The notes below the pieces were generated by a model, which had not been told where the DNA came from, did no database searches, and saw only the letters and a list, made by a program, of their open reading frames with translations. Made by a program: the position numbers and the translations under genes. A DNA stretch of 34,245 nucleotides, taken from assembly GCA_021807595.1 (NCBI GenBank), contig JAKBCS010000050.1, positions 1 through 34,245 of the forward strand. The letters are read 5' to 3'. Below are positions 10,230-18,573 of the stretch, piece after piece. The DNA comes from Planctomycetota bacterium (GTDB lineage Bacteria > Planctomycetota > Planctomycetia > Gemmatales > Gemmataceae). Each line of letters starts with the position of its first letter. Positions within the stretch are counted from its first letter, which is position 1.

Positions 10230-12005
10230 CTACGACGCGTGACGGCCGTTGGCTCGGGTAAGATGCAGCAACGGTGAATCGACAGCGTCTCCCTCCGGCA
10301 TGGCCAACCGGGGCAGCGTTAAGACGAATCGAGTCGGTTCGTGGCGGCGCGGGGGATCGAGGCGCAAGTCGCCCCCTTGTAACTGAGTCAGACGCCAGGC
10401 GATGGGCAGTCCCAAGCCGCGCCCGCGCCCGGCCGGCCGGCCCGAATAGAACGGATCGAACAGATGGGGCCGTTGCAGGGCGTCGGGGCCTGTTCCATTG
10501 TCTTCGATGGCCAATTCGATGTCCGCGCCTTCGATGGGGCGGCGTAGGATCAGCCGCGCCCAGCCATCGGTGGGCGCAGCTTCGATGGCGTTGCGTAGAA
10601 GGCAAGTCAACGCGGTTCGCAGTTGGCCGGCGTCCGCGTACACGGGCAATCGTTCGGGCTGAATAGCCACCTCAATGCGCACGCGCCGCTGTGCCGCCAT
10701 CTCGCCCAGACTGGCCGCCGTTTCGCCCAACAGCGTCGGTAGATCGAGCCAACCCGGACAGGGAGGAGCCGGCTTGGCGAACTGCATCAACTCGCGCAGG
10801 ATGCCGTGAATGCGGCGCGTCTGCGCGACGATCGCCTCCAAAGCCTTATGCGGCGCGTCTCTCGCATCTTCGCGGAACCAATCGCCTTCATGCGCGAGCA
10901 AGTATTGTGCTTGTCCAGAGATGACGGCGAGCGGATTATTGATTTCATGCCCCGCGCCGCCGGCAAACTCGGCTAGAGCGGCCAACTTGCCCGATTGGAG
11001 ACGGCACGCCTCGCCGTGGACTTGTTCTTCCAGGGCGCGTTGGAGGGCATCGATCTCTTGTTCGAGATGATCGTGCAACGGTTGCTGACGCAAGCGGCGA
11101 TTTTCGGCTGCCGACTCTAATAAGTCGCGCAGCAGGGGAACCTCGTTTGGTTTACCGGATAAGGAATCGGGAAGCGGAGAAGACAAAGGGAAGGCCGTGG
11201 AAGCCTCTAGCTCTCTGTCTCCCTGTCGGCCCGTATCCGCGTCGTCGTCCAGGAGCAGCGCGGCGCGGTCGGCGGAGGCAAATGCGCCTTGTCCCAAACC
11301 CAGATCGACGCCCTGTCGTCGCGCTTCTTCGATGGCCAGGCGCGCCAACGGAAACAGCACGGGATCGGCGCGAAAGGTCTGAGCTAATTCGGTGGGTAGG
11401 TGTAAATGTTCGGCGGCGGCGCTGGACCAAGGGGGCAATCGCCAACGCCGCGCCAATCGGCGGGCAATCGCTGCTGAATCGATCCCCCAGTGGCGACGCT
11501 GTGTCTCGGCGGGATCGGATCGCAGGGCGGGATCGGCCCAACAGGCGGCGACGGCCTCGACATCGACGGCGCACATGGCCAACCAGCCCAGGGGAGCCAG
11601 CAAGCCGCACGTCCAGGCGGCTTCCGGATCGCATTGCCCCGTTCGCTCGGCCAATCGATGCGCCAGGCGCGCGTACGCCAGACTTGCTTCGTAGACCGGT
11701 TGAACGAGCGGGTGATTCCACTCGACGAAGCACTCGGAATGCCGGAGCAGTGCCAGGGCGTCGTCAATGGCGGCGGCGCGAGCGAACGCGGCGGCATGGA
11801 AGGAAGGCGGAGGAGCGGAAGTTGTCCGGCCCGGCCAGGGTGCGTCGCTGTGCCGAACGAGAAGTAGTACCGCTCCGGGGTCGTGCCGGATGGCGGGCCA
11901 AGTGTCTTCGGTCAGCGGTCGTCCGAGAACCGCTAACGACGCAGCGCTCGGCGACAGCCAGGACAGACGCAGTACAGCCTCCGCCCGCTTCTCCGGGTCG
12001 CTCAC
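10230..12005 (-). CDS. HDOD-like domain / sensor histidine kinase fusion
   Basis: This soluble 591-aa protein has no signal peptide or TM helix. Residues about 60-250 look like an HDOD output domain (AWTCGLLAPLGWLAMC, then HWGIDSAAIARRLARRWRLP). A coiled-coil linker at about 288-340 leads to a HisKA domain with the phospho-acceptor H353 in GGAGHEINNPLAV. The HATPase domain shows an N-box with N472 (LLRNAIEAAP), DNG at 502-504 and GRGRGLGL at 526-533. It should autophosphorylate in response to a cytosolic signal. The GTG at 12005 has GAGGAG upstream. The HTH-receiver gene lies just upstream on the same strand, so the two probably form a two-component pair. The HDOD assignment is less sure than the kinase. 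Confidence 0.85.
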   Translation of the reverse strand: MSDPEKRAEAVLRLSWLSPSAASLAVLGRPLTEDTWPAIRHDPGAVLLLVRHSDAPWPGRTTSAPPPSFHAAAFARAAAIDDALALLRHSECFVEWNHPLVQPVYEASLAYARLAHRLAERTGQCDPEAAWTCGLLAPLGWLAMCAVDVEAVAACWADPALRSDPAETQRRHWGIDSAAIARRLARRWRLPPWSSAAAEHLHLPTELAQTFRADPVLFPLARLAIEEARRQGVDLGLGQGAFASADRAALLLDDDADTGRQGDRELEASTAFPLSSPLPDSLSGKPNEVPLLRDLLESAAENRRLRQQPLHDHLEQEIDALQRALEEQVHGEACRLQSGKLAALAEFAGGAGHEINNPLAVISGQAQYLLAHEGDWFREDARDAPHKALEAIVAQTRRIHGILRELMQFAKPAPPCPGWLDLPTLLGETAASLGEMAAQRRVRIEVAIQPERLPVYADAGQLRTALTCLLRNAIEAAPTDGWARLILRRPIEGADIELAIEDNGTGPDALQRPHLFDPFYSGRPAGRGRGLGLPIAWRLTQLQGGDLRLDPPRRHEPTRFVLTLPRLAMPEGDAVDSPLLHLTRANGRHAS

Positions 12006-12120: not shown

Positions 12121-12705
12121 TTACGCCGGGGTTGTCACCGGCTCGATGTCCAGCAACGCGCACATCTCGTCGATCAACTCTTCGACGACGAACGGTTTGT
12201 GCAAGAACTTGTCGGCTCCGGCCAAACGCAGTTCGTGGATCTTGTCTTCTTCGATCATGCCGGAGATGCACAAGATGCGCACGTCTTCGAGCGTGGTATC
12301 GGCTCGAACGCGGTGGCAGACTTCCTTGCCGTTGATGTCCGGCAACATAACGTCCAGCACGATGATGTCGGGTCGATATTCCTTGACCATCATGCCCGCG
12401 TCGAAGCCGTTGGAAGCGATACGCACCTCGAAACGGCCGTCTTCATCCAGGAACCTGTTCATCACATCGACCAGTTCGGCGTCGTCGTCAACGAGCAGAA
12501 CCTTGCGCTTGCCGCTCTCCAGCGCGTCGGTGGGAATGCCGTTGTCCCTCATGAACTTGTAAAGAGCTTCGCGCGGTATGCGCCGGAAGCGCGAACCGGG
12601 CACGCGAAACCCCTTCAATTGGCCGTTGTCGAAACAACGGATAATAGTTTGTTGACTGACCTTGCAAACTTTGGCGGCTTCGCCGGTCGTAAATACGGTT
12701 TTCAT
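12121..12705 (-). CDS. Response regulator with N-terminal excisionase/MerR-like HTH and C-terminal receiver
   Basis: In this 194-aa protein residues 1-52 are a winged HTH of the excisionase/helix_turn_helix_17 type (FTTGEAAKVCKVSQQTIIR, with GFRVPGSRFRRIPREAL). Residues 67-188 are a CheY-like receiver: acidic D73-D75, phospho-acceptor D118 in VLDVMLPD, switch S148 and K170 in LHKPF. The order, DNA-binding domain first, is the reverse of most regulators; I know this layout mainly from planctomycetes and similar bacteria. The ATG at 12705 has AAGGAC upstream. It is followed by the HDOD/histidine kinase gene, its likely partner. A consensus promoter lies about 340 bp upstream. Confidence 0.9.
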   Translation of the reverse strand: MKTVFTTGEAAKVCKVSQQTIIRCFDNGQLKGFRVPGSRFRRIPREALYKFMRDNGIPTDALESGKRKVLLVDDDAELVDVMNRFLDEDGRFEVRIASNGFDAGMMVKEYRPDIIVLDVMLPDINGKEVCHRVRADTTLEDVRILCISGMIEEDKIHELRLAGADKFLHKPFVVEELIDEMCALLDIEPVTTPA

Positions 12706-15410: not shown

Positions 15411-16427
15411 ATGACAGACGATTTACCCGCTCCCCATTCTCGACGATTGCCGTGGCGCGCCGCCGCCAGAGGATGCCTCGCCGGCGCGCTGGTGGCGCTG
15501 GTCGCTCACCTTCTCTACGTTATGGTCGGAAGCAACTTTCACACCGTAATTCCCGGCGCGGTGTATCGCTCGGCGCAACTTTCGGCGGCGTCCCTGGATC
15601 GCTACCTTCAGGACAAACACATTCGCACCGTCATCAATCTGCGCGGTTGCTGCGATCCCGAAACGTGGTATCTGAACGAGGGGCGCGTGACGTTGCGCAA
15701 CGAGGTTTCTCTGGAAGATCTCGGTTTCTCGGCCGGTCGGCTGCCGTCGAGCCAGACTTTGCGCCAACTGCTCGAACTCATCGACCGCAGCGAATACCCC
15801 ATTCTGTTCCACTGTCATAAGGGGGCGGATCGCACCGGCATGGCCTCGGTTCTCGCTCTTTTGTTGCTCACCGACACGCCCTTGGACGACGCCGTCCACG
15901 AACTCGGCTTTCGTTCCGGACATTTGCCGATCGGCAGGACCGTGAACATCGATCGCTTCTTCGATCTCTATCGGGAATGGCTATCGAGTCGGAGCCTGAC
16001 GCATACGCCGGCGGTCTTGCGCCGTTGGATCGAGCGGGAGTATTGTCCCGGCGATTGTCGTTGTCGGATCGAGTTTGCCGATACCATTGCGTTGCCGTTG
16101 CATCTGTCCGGCCCCATGCCGTCGCCGCTGCGCATTCGATGCCACAACACGTCGATCGCGCCGTGGCATCTCCATCCGAGCGACAACTCCGGCGTCCATC
16201 TGATTTTCGTGCTATCTAACGATAGGGGACAATGTGTCGCCACCGGCAAGTCGGGCCTGTTTCATGCGACGGTCCCACCGGGCGGATCGATCGATTTGAC
16301 GGCGGTTTTACCCGGCGCGCTAGCCCCCGGACGGTACGAGTTGCGCGTGGACATGGACGAGGAGCAACACGCCTTTTTCATGCAGACCGGCTCGCAACCG
16401 TTGAGTTGCGCCGTGGAAGTGCCCTAA
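15411..16427 (+). CDS. Membrane-anchored Cys-type (dual-specificity/tyrosine) phosphatase with C-terminal beta domain
   Basis: This protein of about 338 aa has one TM helix near residues 20-38 (CLAGALVALVAHLLYVMV). Then comes a compact phosphatase domain with VIPGAVYRSAQLS, RTVINLRG and the P-loop HCHKGADRTG (Cys135, Arg141; CX5R). The C-terminal 130 residues look like an Ig-like beta-sandwich. With the helix as an N-in signal anchor, both domains would be periplasmic, which is unusual for this family and hints at a lipid or glycan phosphate substrate. ATG 15411 has GGAGG 12 nt upstream; the alternative ATG 15354 adds 19 residues. The downstream genes code for a UPF0104-type protein and a GT2 transferase, suggesting an envelope-lipid role. 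Confidence 0.82.
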   Translation: MTDDLPAPHSRRLPWRAAARGCLAGALVALVAHLLYVMVGSNFHTVIPGAVYRSAQLSAASLDRYLQDKHIRTVINLRGCCDPETWYLNEGRVTLRNEVSLEDLGFSAGRLPSSQTLRQLLELIDRSEYPILFHCHKGADRTGMASVLALLLLTDTPLDDAVHELGFRSGHLPIGRTVNIDRFFDLYREWLSSRSLTHTPAVLRRWIEREYCPGDCRCRIEFADTIALPLHLSGPMPSPLRIRCHNTSIAPWHLHPSDNSGVHLIFVLSNDRGQCVATGKSGLFHATVPPGGSIDLTAVLPGALAPGRYELRVDMDEEQHAFFMQTGSQPLSCAVEVP

Positions 16428-16431
16428 CCGT

Positions 16432-16462
16432 TCTCCCTCGCCCCTGTATTCAGAGGAGAGGG
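16432..16462. repeat. Dispersed stem-loop repeat, copy 3 (diverged)
   Basis: CCCTC (16435-16439) and GAGGG (16458-16462) flank a CCCCTGTATTCAG core, related to the copies at 7063 and 16476. It lies just after the phosphatase stop. Confidence 0.5.
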
Positions 16463-16475
16463 TTTTCCCATTTGT

Positions 16476-16505
16476 CTCCTCGCCCCCGTACTCGGGGGAG
16501 AGGAG
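16476..16505. repeat. Dispersed stem-loop repeat, copy 4
   Basis: CTCCTC-G-CCCCC and GGGGG-A-GAGGAG form an 11-bp stem with one mismatch around a GTACTC loop. The downstream flank GGGGTTTCTCGGAGAG matches the flank of copy 2. It sits between the phosphatase and UPF0104 genes. Confidence 0.6.
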
Positions 16506-16577
16506 TTGGGAGTGAGGGGTTTCTCGGAGAGGCGCAGAGCAATCGATCGTTCCGCGAAGAATCGATGGGGAGGATAT

Positions 16578-17702
16578 GTGAAAAAGTATTGGCGTCTCTT
16601 GGGAAGCGGCATTCTGGTGGTGTTTCTGATCTGGCATGTGGAATGGAAAAAAGTGGCCTCGGCGTTCGTTCAGTTGGATGCGACCTACTGGGTTTCGGCT
16701 CTGGGAATGTTCTTCGTCATTCAATGCGTCAGCGCGCTCCGCTGGCAGATGCTCGGACGGATGCTCGGATTGGGAGGGCGCTGGCACGAGTATCTGGCTT
16801 ACTATTACGTCGGGATGTTCTTCAATCTCGTCCTGCCGACTTCGGTGGGCGGCGACGTGGTGCGAGCCTGGTATTTGGGACGTTTAGAGGGCGAGAATCC
16901 CGCAATGGGACGGCGGACGGCGGCCTTCGTAAGTGTTTTGGCCGACCGTCTCAACGGATTCGCCGTCATGATCGTTGTGGCGTCCCTCGCGGCGTTGTGT
17001 TGCCCGATAGCGCTGCCGAGTTGGATCGCTTGGACCGTCGCCGGTTTGGGAGCGGGCTGCACCATCGGATTGGCCGTCCTGCCGGTCTTGCCTAGGGTTC
17101 GACCTTGGCTGCCGTCGCATCCGCGCCTGATGCGGATTTTCGACGCTGCCGACCTGTGCCTGCGGGATCGGATCGGCATGGTCTGGGTCACACTATTGTC
17201 GGTGTTAGTGCAGCTGGGCAACATCGTTTTCGCCTGGTTGATCGGCGTGGGCATGGGCTTGCAGATCCCAGCGTTGTACTATGCGGTGCTGATTCCCTTG
17301 GTGTCGATTTTGACCCTATTGCCCATCAGTCTCAACGGCATGGGGCTGCGTGAAATCGGCACGGTGGGGTTATTGGAACCGTTGCACGTCGATTCGGCCA
17401 CGGCGGTCACTCTGTCGCTGTTACTGTTCGCCGTGTATACCACGGCTAGCTTGTCGGGCGGCTTGGTTTATTTGTTCGGGCGCGCTCCTCGCTTTCAGGC
17501 GGCGGAGGCCGGGCGGGCGGCGCAAGATTCTTTCACCGCGTCTCGCGGCACGGAGGCATCCGGTCATGCGGACCCTGTCGGTAGTGATTCCGATCAAGGA
17601 CGAAGGGGCAAATCTACGGCCACTCCACGAGCGGCTGCGCCGTGCGCTCGATCCACTTTGTGTGGGGGGGGAAGGCCGTCTCCCTCGATTGGAGAACTAT
17701 GA
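16578..17702 (+). CDS. UPF0104 / lysylphosphatidylglycerol-synthase-TM-like integral membrane protein
   Basis: This protein of about 374 aa has about eight TM helices. Motifs NLVLPTSVGGDVVRAWYL and ISLNGMGLREIGTVGLL are typical of the UPF0104/LPG_synthase_TM (AglD/MprF flippase-like) family. Members are tied to lipid flipping or glycosyl transfer to polyprenyl lipids. The GTG start at 16578 has GGGAGG 5 nt upstream; a TTG at 16506 lies inside the repeat region and is unlikely. The last 45 or so codons lie over the start of the GT2 gene in another frame; that tail is polar and low complexity. It is probably cotranscribed with the phosphatase and GT2 genes. Confidence 0.83.
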   Translation: MKKYWRLLGSGILVVFLIWHVEWKKVASAFVQLDATYWVSALGMFFVIQCVSALRWQMLGRMLGLGGRWHEYLAYYYVGMFFNLVLPTSVGGDVVRAWYLGRLEGENPAMGRRTAAFVSVLADRLNGFAVMIVVASLAALCCPIALPSWIAWTVAGLGAGCTIGLAVLPVLPRVRPWLPSHPRLMRIFDAADLCLRDRIGMVWVTLLSVLVQLGNIVFAWLIGVGMGLQIPALYYAVLIPLVSILTLLPISLNGMGLREIGTVGLLEPLHVDSATAVTLSLLLFAVYTTASLSGGLVYLFGRAPRFQAAEAGRAAQDSFTASRGTEASGHADPVGSDSDQGRRGKSTATPRAAAPCARSTLCGGGRPSPSIGEL

Positions 17703-18573
17703 GATCCTTTTTGTAGACGATGGCAGCGGCGACGACTCCTTCGCCGTCTTGAACGAGTTGGCCGCCCTCGACCACCGCGTAAAAGTGGTGTGCCTGCGCC
17801 GCAACTTCGGCCAGACGCCCGCCCTCCGCGCCGGCATCGATTGGTCCACGGGCGACGTTCTCGTCACCATGGACGGCGATCTACAAAACGATCCCGCCGA
17901 CATTCCCATGTTGCTCGACAAGCTCGATGAGGGACACGACGCCGTTTTTGGCCTCCGCGCCAATCGCCAGGATCATTTCTTCGTCCGTAAGCTGCCCAGC
18001 TTTTTCGGCAACTGGTTGATCCGCCGCGTTACCGGCGTGCGCATCCGCGACATGGGATGCACCCTCCGCGCCATGCGACGCGATCTCGCCGAATCGCTCC
18101 CCTTGTACGGCGAACTGCACCGTTTCGTGCCCGTGCTGGCGCAGATGCACGGTGCCCGAATCGTACAGGTTCCCGTGCGCCATCACGCGCGTGTCGCCGG
18201 CAAAACGAAGTACGGCCTAACTCGCACCGTCCGCGTCTTGCTCGACCTGATTACGGTGAAGTTTCTGCACACCTATTTAGCGCGGCCGATGCACGTCTTG
18301 GGAACCGCCGGCCTTGTCTCCATGGCGGTGGGCGGCCTCAGTTTATTGGCCACCATCGCCATGAAATATCTGCTGAATCCGCCGGTGTTCATGACCGGCA
18401 ATCCGCTGTTGTTGCTCAGCGTGATGCTCGAGTTGGTCGGCGTGCAGTTCATCTCGATGGGCCTGCTCGGCGAAGTGCTGACACGCACCTATTTCGAGAG
18501 TCAGGGCAAAACGTCGTACACTGTGCGAACGACCTTGAATCTCAACGAAGCCGGCCACCGCCGCGCCGCTTGA
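17566..18573 (+). CDS. GT2 family polyisoprenyl-phosphate glycosyltransferase (DPM1/ArnC-like)
   Basis: This 335-aa protein has an N-terminal GT-A domain: VVIPIKDEGANL, DDGSGD at 51-56, RRNFGQTPALRAG, and the metal-binding DGDLQNDP at 103-110. Two TM helices follow at the C-terminus (about 230-305). This layout is typical of enzymes that load a sugar onto undecaprenyl phosphate on the cytosolic face, such as ArnC, GtrB and DPM1 relatives. An extra 12-15 residues (LCVGGEGRLPRL) lie before the second strand. The ATG at 17566 has GGAGG upstream and overlaps the UPF0104 gene by 137 bp, suggesting translational coupling. Its product could feed the GT-C enzymes elsewhere in the window. Confidence 0.88.
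   Translation: MRTLSVVIPIKDEGANLRPLHERLRRALDPLCVGGEGRLPRLENYEILFVDDGSGDDSFAVLNELAALDHRVKVVCLRRNFGQTPALRAGIDWSTGDVLVTMDGDLQNDPADIPMLLDKLDEGHDAVFGLRANRQDHFFVRKLPSFFGNWLIRRVTGVRIRDMGCTLRAMRRDLAESLPLYGELHRFVPVLAQMHGARIVQVPVRHHARVAGKTKYGLTRTVRVLLDLITVKFLHTYLARPMHVLGTAGLVSMAVGGLSLLATIAMKYLLNPPVFMTGNPLLLLSVMLELVGVQFISMGLLGEVLTRTYFESQGKTSYTVRTTLNLNEAGHRRAA

Follow-up and report, generated by a model that had tools for sequence, protein, structure and literature searches.

The stretch of DNA analysed here, referred to as the window, comprises positions 1 to 34,245 (forward strand) of contig JAKBCS010000050.1 from a planctomycete of the Gemmataceae (Planctomycetota bacterium, assembly GCA_021807595.1). 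Between positions 15411 and 18573 it carries, on one strand, genes for a membrane-anchored phosphatase with a CX5R active site, a membrane protein of the UPF0104 family and a family 2 glycosyltransferase (GT2) similar to ArnC. The same three-gene set had been proposed in an initial annotation made from the letters of the sequence, and it is confirmed by Pfam scores above the cut-offs for the phosphatase (Y_phosphatase3, 48.3 bits against 22.2), the UPF0104 protein (PF03706, LPG_synthase_TM, 116.3 against 33.4; also TIGR00374, 66.1 against 43.2) and the GT2 (101.3 against 23.3). The features of the locus are the following, where PTP/DSP stands for the superfamily of protein tyrosine and dual-specificity phosphatases and AF2 for AlphaFold2.

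15411..16427, forward strand: anchored Cys-based phosphatase of predicted PTP/DSP fold with a C-terminal beta sandwich, 338 amino acids (translation, Pfam, AF2 model)
15471..15527, forward strand: hydrophobic anchor, residues 21-39, predicted N-in/C-out (hydropathy and charge count, AF2 model)
15717..15719, forward strand: Asp103, candidate general acid (alignment of 43 phosphatases)
15810..15839, forward strand: P-loop HCHKGADRTG, residues 134-143 (H134, C135, G138, D140, R141 and T142 invariant in 43 of 43)
16047..16424, forward strand: C-terminal beta-sandwich module, predicted fold like the carbohydrate-binding domain (CBD) of Wzt or an FW domain (all 43 aligned sequences keep N246 and W252; model)
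16578..17702, forward strand: flippase-like membrane protein of the UPF0104 / LPG_synthase_TM family, optional in the cluster (Pfam)
17566..18573, forward strand: GT2 of the ArnC/GtrB type, presumed to make a polyprenyl-phosphate sugar, with two hydrophobic segments in its C-terminal part (Pfam, NCBIfam, profile search of the PDB)

The conservation of this cluster was followed in 59 genomes (G000 to G058, own genome included), 44 of which, again with the own genome, belong to two families, f1 and f2. The best phosphatase locus was taken from 40 of these f1/f2 relatives (L033-L071 and L083), and in all 40, as in the window, the GT2 lies downstream of the phosphatase and on its strand; the count leaves aside G007 and G041, where the phosphatase and the GT2 (L228), respectively, sit at a contig end, and G033. 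A second sample was drawn from a named genome collection, overlapping in genomes with the first, in which the best 80 of 246 matches were kept and 65 loci (L084-L148) were taken as Gemmatales. Here the GT2 stands next to the phosphatase in 60 of the 65, with four others cut by contig ends, and the pair is present in isolates of Limnoglobus (Limnoglobus roseus), Zavarzinella (Zavarzinella formosa) and Gemmata (Gemmata sp.). Such a conserved adjacency indicates that the cluster is more than a chance arrangement. Apart from the cluster genes and frames overlapping them, the commonest neighbouring family occurs in only 6 of 41 loci (some of them short), which indicates that the unit moves as a block. 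The initial annotation had staked its proposal on the cluster being conserved, and in other planctomycetes of the order it is, which supports the tie between the phosphatase and polyprenyl-phosphate-sugar chemistry. It is very probable that phosphatase and GT2 act in one envelope pathway.

In contrast, the UPF0104 gene is not the constant part of the cluster that it had been taken for, since 26 of the 41 loci have it (the window and 25 of the 40 relatives), as do 28 of the 60 named loci. Its subfamily was found in 27 of the 59 genomes, own included, 26 times in the cluster and elsewhere only in G026. In a tree of the GT2 with 39 cluster rows (L044 and L062 were left out as fragments), a single group of 14 rows takes in 12 of the 14 loci without UPF0104, together with one locus that has it. 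The tree needs three changes of UPF0104 presence, and well-supported branches force at least two of these. The idea of UPF0104 as the core flippase of the system was rejected on its presence in only 26 of 41 loci. Where the gene is present, its frame and that of the GT2 share 137 nt out of frame in the window (17566-17702), an overlap with the GT2 start that is kept in 24 of the 26 loci, while the stop of the phosphatase and the next start overlap in 20 of the 41 loci. Members of the UPF0104 family have been proposed to act as flippases, and in archaea they are found alongside genes for glycosylation (PMC5898192). The search for a solved relative of the UPF0104 protein found none.

The GT2 finds its best NCBIfam match in ArnC (NF007986) with 202.1 bits, far under the equivalog cut-off of 529. 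A profile built from 38 orthologues matches in the PDB ArnC itself (9hwj, 2.1e-73), sll0501 (5eke, 4.2e-57), which we take to be GtrB, and dolichol-phosphate-mannose synthase (DPMS; 5mlz, 1.3e-30). Together with two C-terminal hydrophobic segments (transmembrane peaks at 248 and 281), this similarity of the catalytic domain places the enzyme in the polyprenyl-phosphate-sugar class of ArnC, GtrB and DPMS, and it is a fair deduction from the family that it charges polyprenyl phosphate.

From this neighbourhood the initial annotation had supposed that the phosphatase acts on a lipid-linked phosphate or pyrophosphate of the pathway. The polyprenyl link has gained support, while the case for a pyrophosphate is weak: routes of the ArnC/GtrB type release polyprenyl monophosphate (Und-P) and not undecaprenyl pyrophosphate (Und-PP or C55-PP), and 57 of the 59 genomes, own included, have at least one of BacA and PAP2. 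A housekeeping C55-PP phosphatase was rejected as the main role of the enzyme on this last count, and was kept as an alternative because BacA (UppP) is missing only from genomes with the cluster. In this alternative the phosphatase would act on Und-PP or another polyprenyl phosphate and so recycle the carrier on the outer side of the membrane, which its tie to a polyprenyl-phosphate GT2 would fit. All 14 genomes in which BacA was not found (G000, G001, G003, G005, G008, G015, G017, G018, G021, G024, G026, G027, G030 and G031), own included, have the cluster. However, 12 of the 14 contain PAP2, the other two (G005 and G008) being 75% complete, and BacA is present in 27 of the 41 cluster genomes. 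The distribution of BacA would speak for C55-PP if it did not follow descent, but it does, as the cluster genomes are all of one order and the others mostly not. On balance carrier recycling is unlikely, even if one enzyme might do both jobs, as suggested by LpxE enzymes active on both lipid A and C55-PP (PMC6581854).

As for the phosphatase itself, a Pfam match over the cut-off and an HCX5R P-loop, with C135 and R141 present in 43 of 43 aligned sequences, place it in the PTP/DSP superfamily. The motif HCxxGxDRT is kept in all 43, the commonest P-loop letters being HC[RH][RQK]G[AS]DRTG, and the invariant positions are R53, N76, W86, H134, C135, G138, D140, R141 and T142; position 136 is R, K or H in 33 of the 43 and position 137 in 29. 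Position 103 is D in 41 sequences, E in one and N in one. Asp103 lies in a loop that precedes the P-loop, and from this position it may serve as general acid, the role proposed for Asp105 in TpbA (PMC4409338). The AF2 model (mean pLDDT 94.2, pTM 0.87) predicts a helix at residues 14-38 and then a PTP domain, with the beta sandwich at the C terminus. With VIA-align the modelled catalytic domain matches SsoPTP (Z 16.0, root-mean-square deviation (rmsd) 3.6, 155 residues aligned), PFA-DSP1 (Z 15.8, rmsd 2.5, 143 aligned), TpbA (Z 15.7, rmsd 2.9, 147 aligned) and Siw14 (Z 15.4, rmsd 2.6, 145 aligned). As these four are tied in Z, the fold picks no substrate among tyrosine, inositol pyrophosphate and others. 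In a Foldseek search with the whole chain, PTEN and WzmWzt come first by E-value, and both also have a beta sandwich, yet with TM-scores of 0.24-0.35 and an rmsd near or above 10 the whole chains are not superposable. No PAP2 family appears among the Pfam matches of the phosphatase, which thus has neither the fold nor the motifs of LpxE and LpxF; any likeness to them would be one of function.

The closeness of TpbA, both in sequence (5.3e-08) and in fold, brings back phosphotyrosine, which the initial annotation had thought a less likely target than a lipid, and with it the possibility of a periplasmic phosphotyrosine or dual-specificity protein phosphatase that regulates glycan synthesis, given that TpbA is exported and acts on phosphotyrosine peptides of TpbB (PMC4409338). 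However, neither a kinase nor a TpbB-like partner recurs in the neighbourhoods, the P-loop of TpbA (HCKHGNNR) differs from the consensus above, the beta-sandwich tail lies beyond the range covered by TpbA, and the fold is equally close to SsoPTP, PFA-DSP1 and Siw14. Such a role seems quite unlikely.

A further member of the fold, PTPMT1 (3rgq, Z 13.8, rmsd 3.1, 148 aligned), raises the case of a phosphatidylglycerophosphate (PGP) phosphatase, and PgpA was not found in any of the 44 f1/f2 genomes (G000-G043), own included, which leaves the PGP step there without an assigned enzyme. On the other hand, nothing links PGP to an ArnC-like GT2, G033 has neither this phosphatase nor PgpA, and family f5 has the tailed phosphatase and yet PgpA in two of its three genomes. 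Moreover, most genomes contain further PTP paralogues, and PAP2 or HAD enzymes are capable of dephosphorylating PGP. A role of the PTPMT1 kind is thus very improbable. In any case, the LpxE of Aquifex also acts on PGP (PMC6581854), and with lipid A and C55-PP among the substrates of LpxE enzymes the lipid alternatives need not exclude each other.

The phosphatase has a single hydrophobic segment (residues 21-39) with a net charge of +4 before and +1 after it, and the charge is likewise higher before than after the best N-terminal hydrophobic segment in 43 of 51 homologues, in a count that applies simple hydropathy to script-chosen starts and is not a topology prediction. This sequence pattern supports a one-helix anchor with the catalytic and beta-sandwich domains facing the periplasm, in agreement with the outward orientation that had been suggested for the enzyme.

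The Ig-like C-terminal domain of the initial annotation reappears as a beta sandwich in the AF2 models, and modelled alone it has a mean pLDDT of 95.4. Its top Foldseek match is the O-antigen-binding CBD of Wzt (8dky, E 3.4e-05, TM-score 0.62 by query, 15% identity), and 6o14, 2r5o and 5hnp are among the other matches. By VIA-align 8dky reaches Z 9.2, whereas many Ig-like domains lie at Z 8.7-10.0, and the FW domains of ILRUN (Z 9.8) and NBR1 (Z 8.8) in the same range; Ig domains and accessory domains of glycoside hydrolases are therefore level with Wzt as matches of the tail, which has to be regarded as a common sandwich fold. A profile search of the PDB gave weak, mostly Ig-type matches, 2 of the 43 members match the NBR1-type Ig family in Pfam (best E 0.0038), and no Wzt family is among the Pfam matches of the phosphatase. 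The tail may bind carbohydrate. In a profile search of the 59 genomes, weaker copies of the tail appeared in proteins other than phosphatases; 14 places were inspected and nine proteins scored, six with a Pfam methyltransferase and three polytopic membrane proteins without a Pfam family. The module is fused to S-adenosylmethionine methyltransferases and polytopic membrane proteins at L275, L276, L278 and L280 (and L277, L279). It is thus a shared module, whose other hosts could fit envelope-glycan chemistry.

A phosphatase domain joined to a beta sandwich recalls laforin and SEX4, which act on glucans, and the enzyme might accordingly remove phosphate from an envelope polysaccharide and not from a lipid. 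In addition to the architecture, the resemblance of the tail to the Wzt CBD and two fold matches labelled as plant phosphatases (3nme and 4kyr, presumably the glucan phosphatases SEX4 and LSF2) point in this direction. However, no CBM20 or CBM48, the modules of laforin and SEX4, is among the Pfam matches of the phosphatase, and the tail, whose sugar binding is putative, is matched equally well by generic Ig folds. A glycan phosphatase is also quite unlikely.

Taken together, the reading that we prefer, if tentatively, is that the cluster is a small envelope-glycosylation unit in which the phosphatase acts on an envelope glycolipid, perhaps lipid A, clearing an acceptor for glycosylation. The process would start with the GT2 loading a sugar on polyprenyl phosphate at the cytoplasmic face, as in its family, and the polyprenyl-phosphate sugar would be brought outward by UPF0104, where present, or by another protein. 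The periplasmic phosphatase would strip a phosphate from an envelope glycolipid, for which lipid A or its core is the first candidate, and the glycan-binding-like tail would hold this substrate. By the mechanism of the family, Cys135 would attack the phosphate monoester held in the P-loop, giving a phosphocysteine that is then hydrolysed. Finally, the exposed hydroxyl could be glycosylated from the polyprenyl-phosphate sugar by an unlinked glycosyltransferase of the GT-C type. A more specific version, in which lipid A or the lipopolysaccharide core of planctomycetes exchanges a phosphate for a sugar and an outward-facing, Cys-based glycolipid phosphatase of PTP fold with its own glycan-reading module takes the phosphate off, also in genomes where PAP2 was not found, is rather doubtful.

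With regard to lipid A, LpxK was found in 58 of the 59 genomes, own included (the sole miss, G032, is 86% complete), which indicates that lipid A carries a 4'-phosphate at least for a time during its synthesis. To our knowledge, every lipid A phosphatase of known sequence is a PAP2 enzyme, and PAP2 was not found in 12 of the 41 cluster genomes (G004, G005, G008, G009, G010, G011, G019, G035, G036, G037, G038 and G040), so that no LpxE or LpxF of the known kind is seen there. An order-wide PTP-fold enzyme paired with a polyprenyl-sugar GT2 would be a concrete and testable candidate for such a phosphatase. In one survey, no homologue of a lipid A 4'-phosphatase was found in Caulobacter crescentus, the lipid A backbone of this species, with two galacturonic acid (GalA) residues, is called identical to that of the survey's subject, and neither LpxE nor LpxF was found in Aquifex aeolicus (PMC7663294). 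The last point is contradicted for LpxE by the solved structure and assayed activity of the Aquifex enzyme (PMC6581854), and the gap in lipid A phosphatases is therefore narrower than the survey states.

Outside the cluster, related phosphatases were examined at 45 distinct loci, of which planctomycete families and the genome scan contributed 23 (L151 repeats the contig of L077) and Rhodobacterales 20, the remaining two being paralogues in the own genome. In three of the 45 a GT-C of the PMT_2 type adjoins the anchored phosphatase on the same strand: L072, an f5 planctomycete with a tailed phosphatase, L078, the second phosphatase of G032, and L152, a gammaproteobacterium from Baikal. Pfam confirms PMT_2 at all three, which is an independent check, as the GT-C profile was trained partly on L072, L152 and L160 and its E-values there are not. 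With 13 PMT_2 matches (12 of them over the cut-off) among the genes of the own genome, taken to number 4,700, about 0.25 such neighbours would be expected by chance in 45 loci, a rough figure worked out after the fact. The anchored phosphatase of Paracoccus, at L160 and at a copy of this locus, L163, lies near a set of genes beyond a divergent response regulator, namely those for an ArnT-like GT-C (71.8 of 567 bits), a GT2 resembling ArnC and a LAB_N protein; of the two loci, L160 is the one on which Pfam and NCBIfam were run.

In Rhodobacterales, 60 of 149 genomes, with G059 among them, have a relative of the phosphatase at E <= 1e-15. Profiles for ArnC-type GT2 and PMT_2-type GT-C found nothing within about 5 kb of the 20 loci, a null that covers these two types only, as other GT2-looking frames were seen by eye near L210, L211, L214 and L217. 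Neighbourhood lists were made for nine of the 20, and at L214, L217 and L223 an ABC transporter (Pfam), presumably MsbA-like, adjoins the PTP gene. Among other relatives, the anchored phosphatases of Nitrospirae and Syntrophaceae bins (L149, L150, L153 and L154) have a C-terminal stretch of about 110 amino acids that by eye is unlike the present tail, and in f3 planctomycetes (L079, L080 and L081) genes matching the phosphatase profile occur in tandem pairs.

Several of these observations weigh against the envelope-glycosylation reading. The Gemmatales cluster itself contains no GT-C, none of the 13 PMT_2 matches in the own genome is singled out as the user of the sugar, and GT-C neighbours are rare elsewhere (3 of 45 loci and none of the 20 in Rhodobacterales); at the other f5 loci with a tailed phosphatase, L075 and L076, neither a GT2 nor a GT-C lies nearby. 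Two exceptions to the pairing point the same way, G033, which keeps the GT2 and lacks the phosphatase, and L144, with a phosphatase and no GT2, the sole true exception among the 65 named contigs. To these has to be added the Ig-like score of the tail, and none of the sequence tests favours lipid A over another phosphorylated lipid, a glycan or a protein.

Around the cluster, MnmG is a flanking gene in the window and otherwise adjoins it only in the close relative G003 among the 40 relatives, while the flanking FtsH and glutaredoxin-like genes lie near the cluster also in G003 and G030 (L037). Between phosphatase and UPF0104 the window has a spacer of 150 nt with stretches that are rich in GC and look palindromic (16428-16577), which measures 103 nt in G003, whereas in many relatives the junction is an overlap of 4 or 8 nt. 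A promoter and terminator scan gave no promoter-like site upstream of 15411 and fewer terminator-like sites than in shuffled sequences, and a repeat search gave nothing relevant to the cluster. Elsewhere in the window, Pfam identifies an HDOD-HisKA-HATPase hybrid kinase (10230-12005) and a regulator in which an HTH_17 and a receiver domain are combined (12121-12705).

No description of the cluster was found in the open PubMed Central literature; its component families are already known. The nearest logic is that of the rhizobial exchange of lipid A phosphate for GalA by LpxE/LpxF, RgtE and RgtD/RgtF, which likewise combines an outward phosphatase, a GT2 making a bactoprenyl-phosphate sugar and a GT-C. 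LpxF is an integral-membrane enzyme of the PAP2 kind. LpxE is another (PMC6581854), whereas the phosphatase described here is Cys-based, with an unrelated fold, that of the PTPs, and one anchor, in a cluster without a GT-C. With TpbA, a periplasmic dual-specificity phosphatase of Pseudomonas aeruginosa, it shares the PTP/DSP fold, an N-terminal export segment, the HCX5R site and the loop Asp; TpbA differs in its 218-residue chain without a beta-sandwich tail, in other P-loop residues and in its target, TpbB. In Caulobacter crescentus, CtpA is a tyrosine-phosphatase homologue of PTP fold needed for normal lipid A, and a search of the open PubMed Central literature for CtpA with Caulobacter lipid A found nothing. 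The GT2 shares with ArnC and GtrB a profile match over nearly its full length and the two C-terminal membrane segments, and differs from ArnC in scoring 202 of 529 bits, below the equivalog cut-off. In the case of the tail, Wzt offers the best Foldseek match, but at 15% identity and with no Wzt match in Pfam. Finally, laforin and SEX4 have in common with the phosphatase a DSP domain joined to a carbohydrate-type beta sandwich, although they are eukaryotic, carry CBM20/48 and have no membrane anchor. If the proposed role holds, a PTP-fold glycolipid phosphatase would be a bacterial counterpart of the laforin/SEX4 and PTEN architecture.

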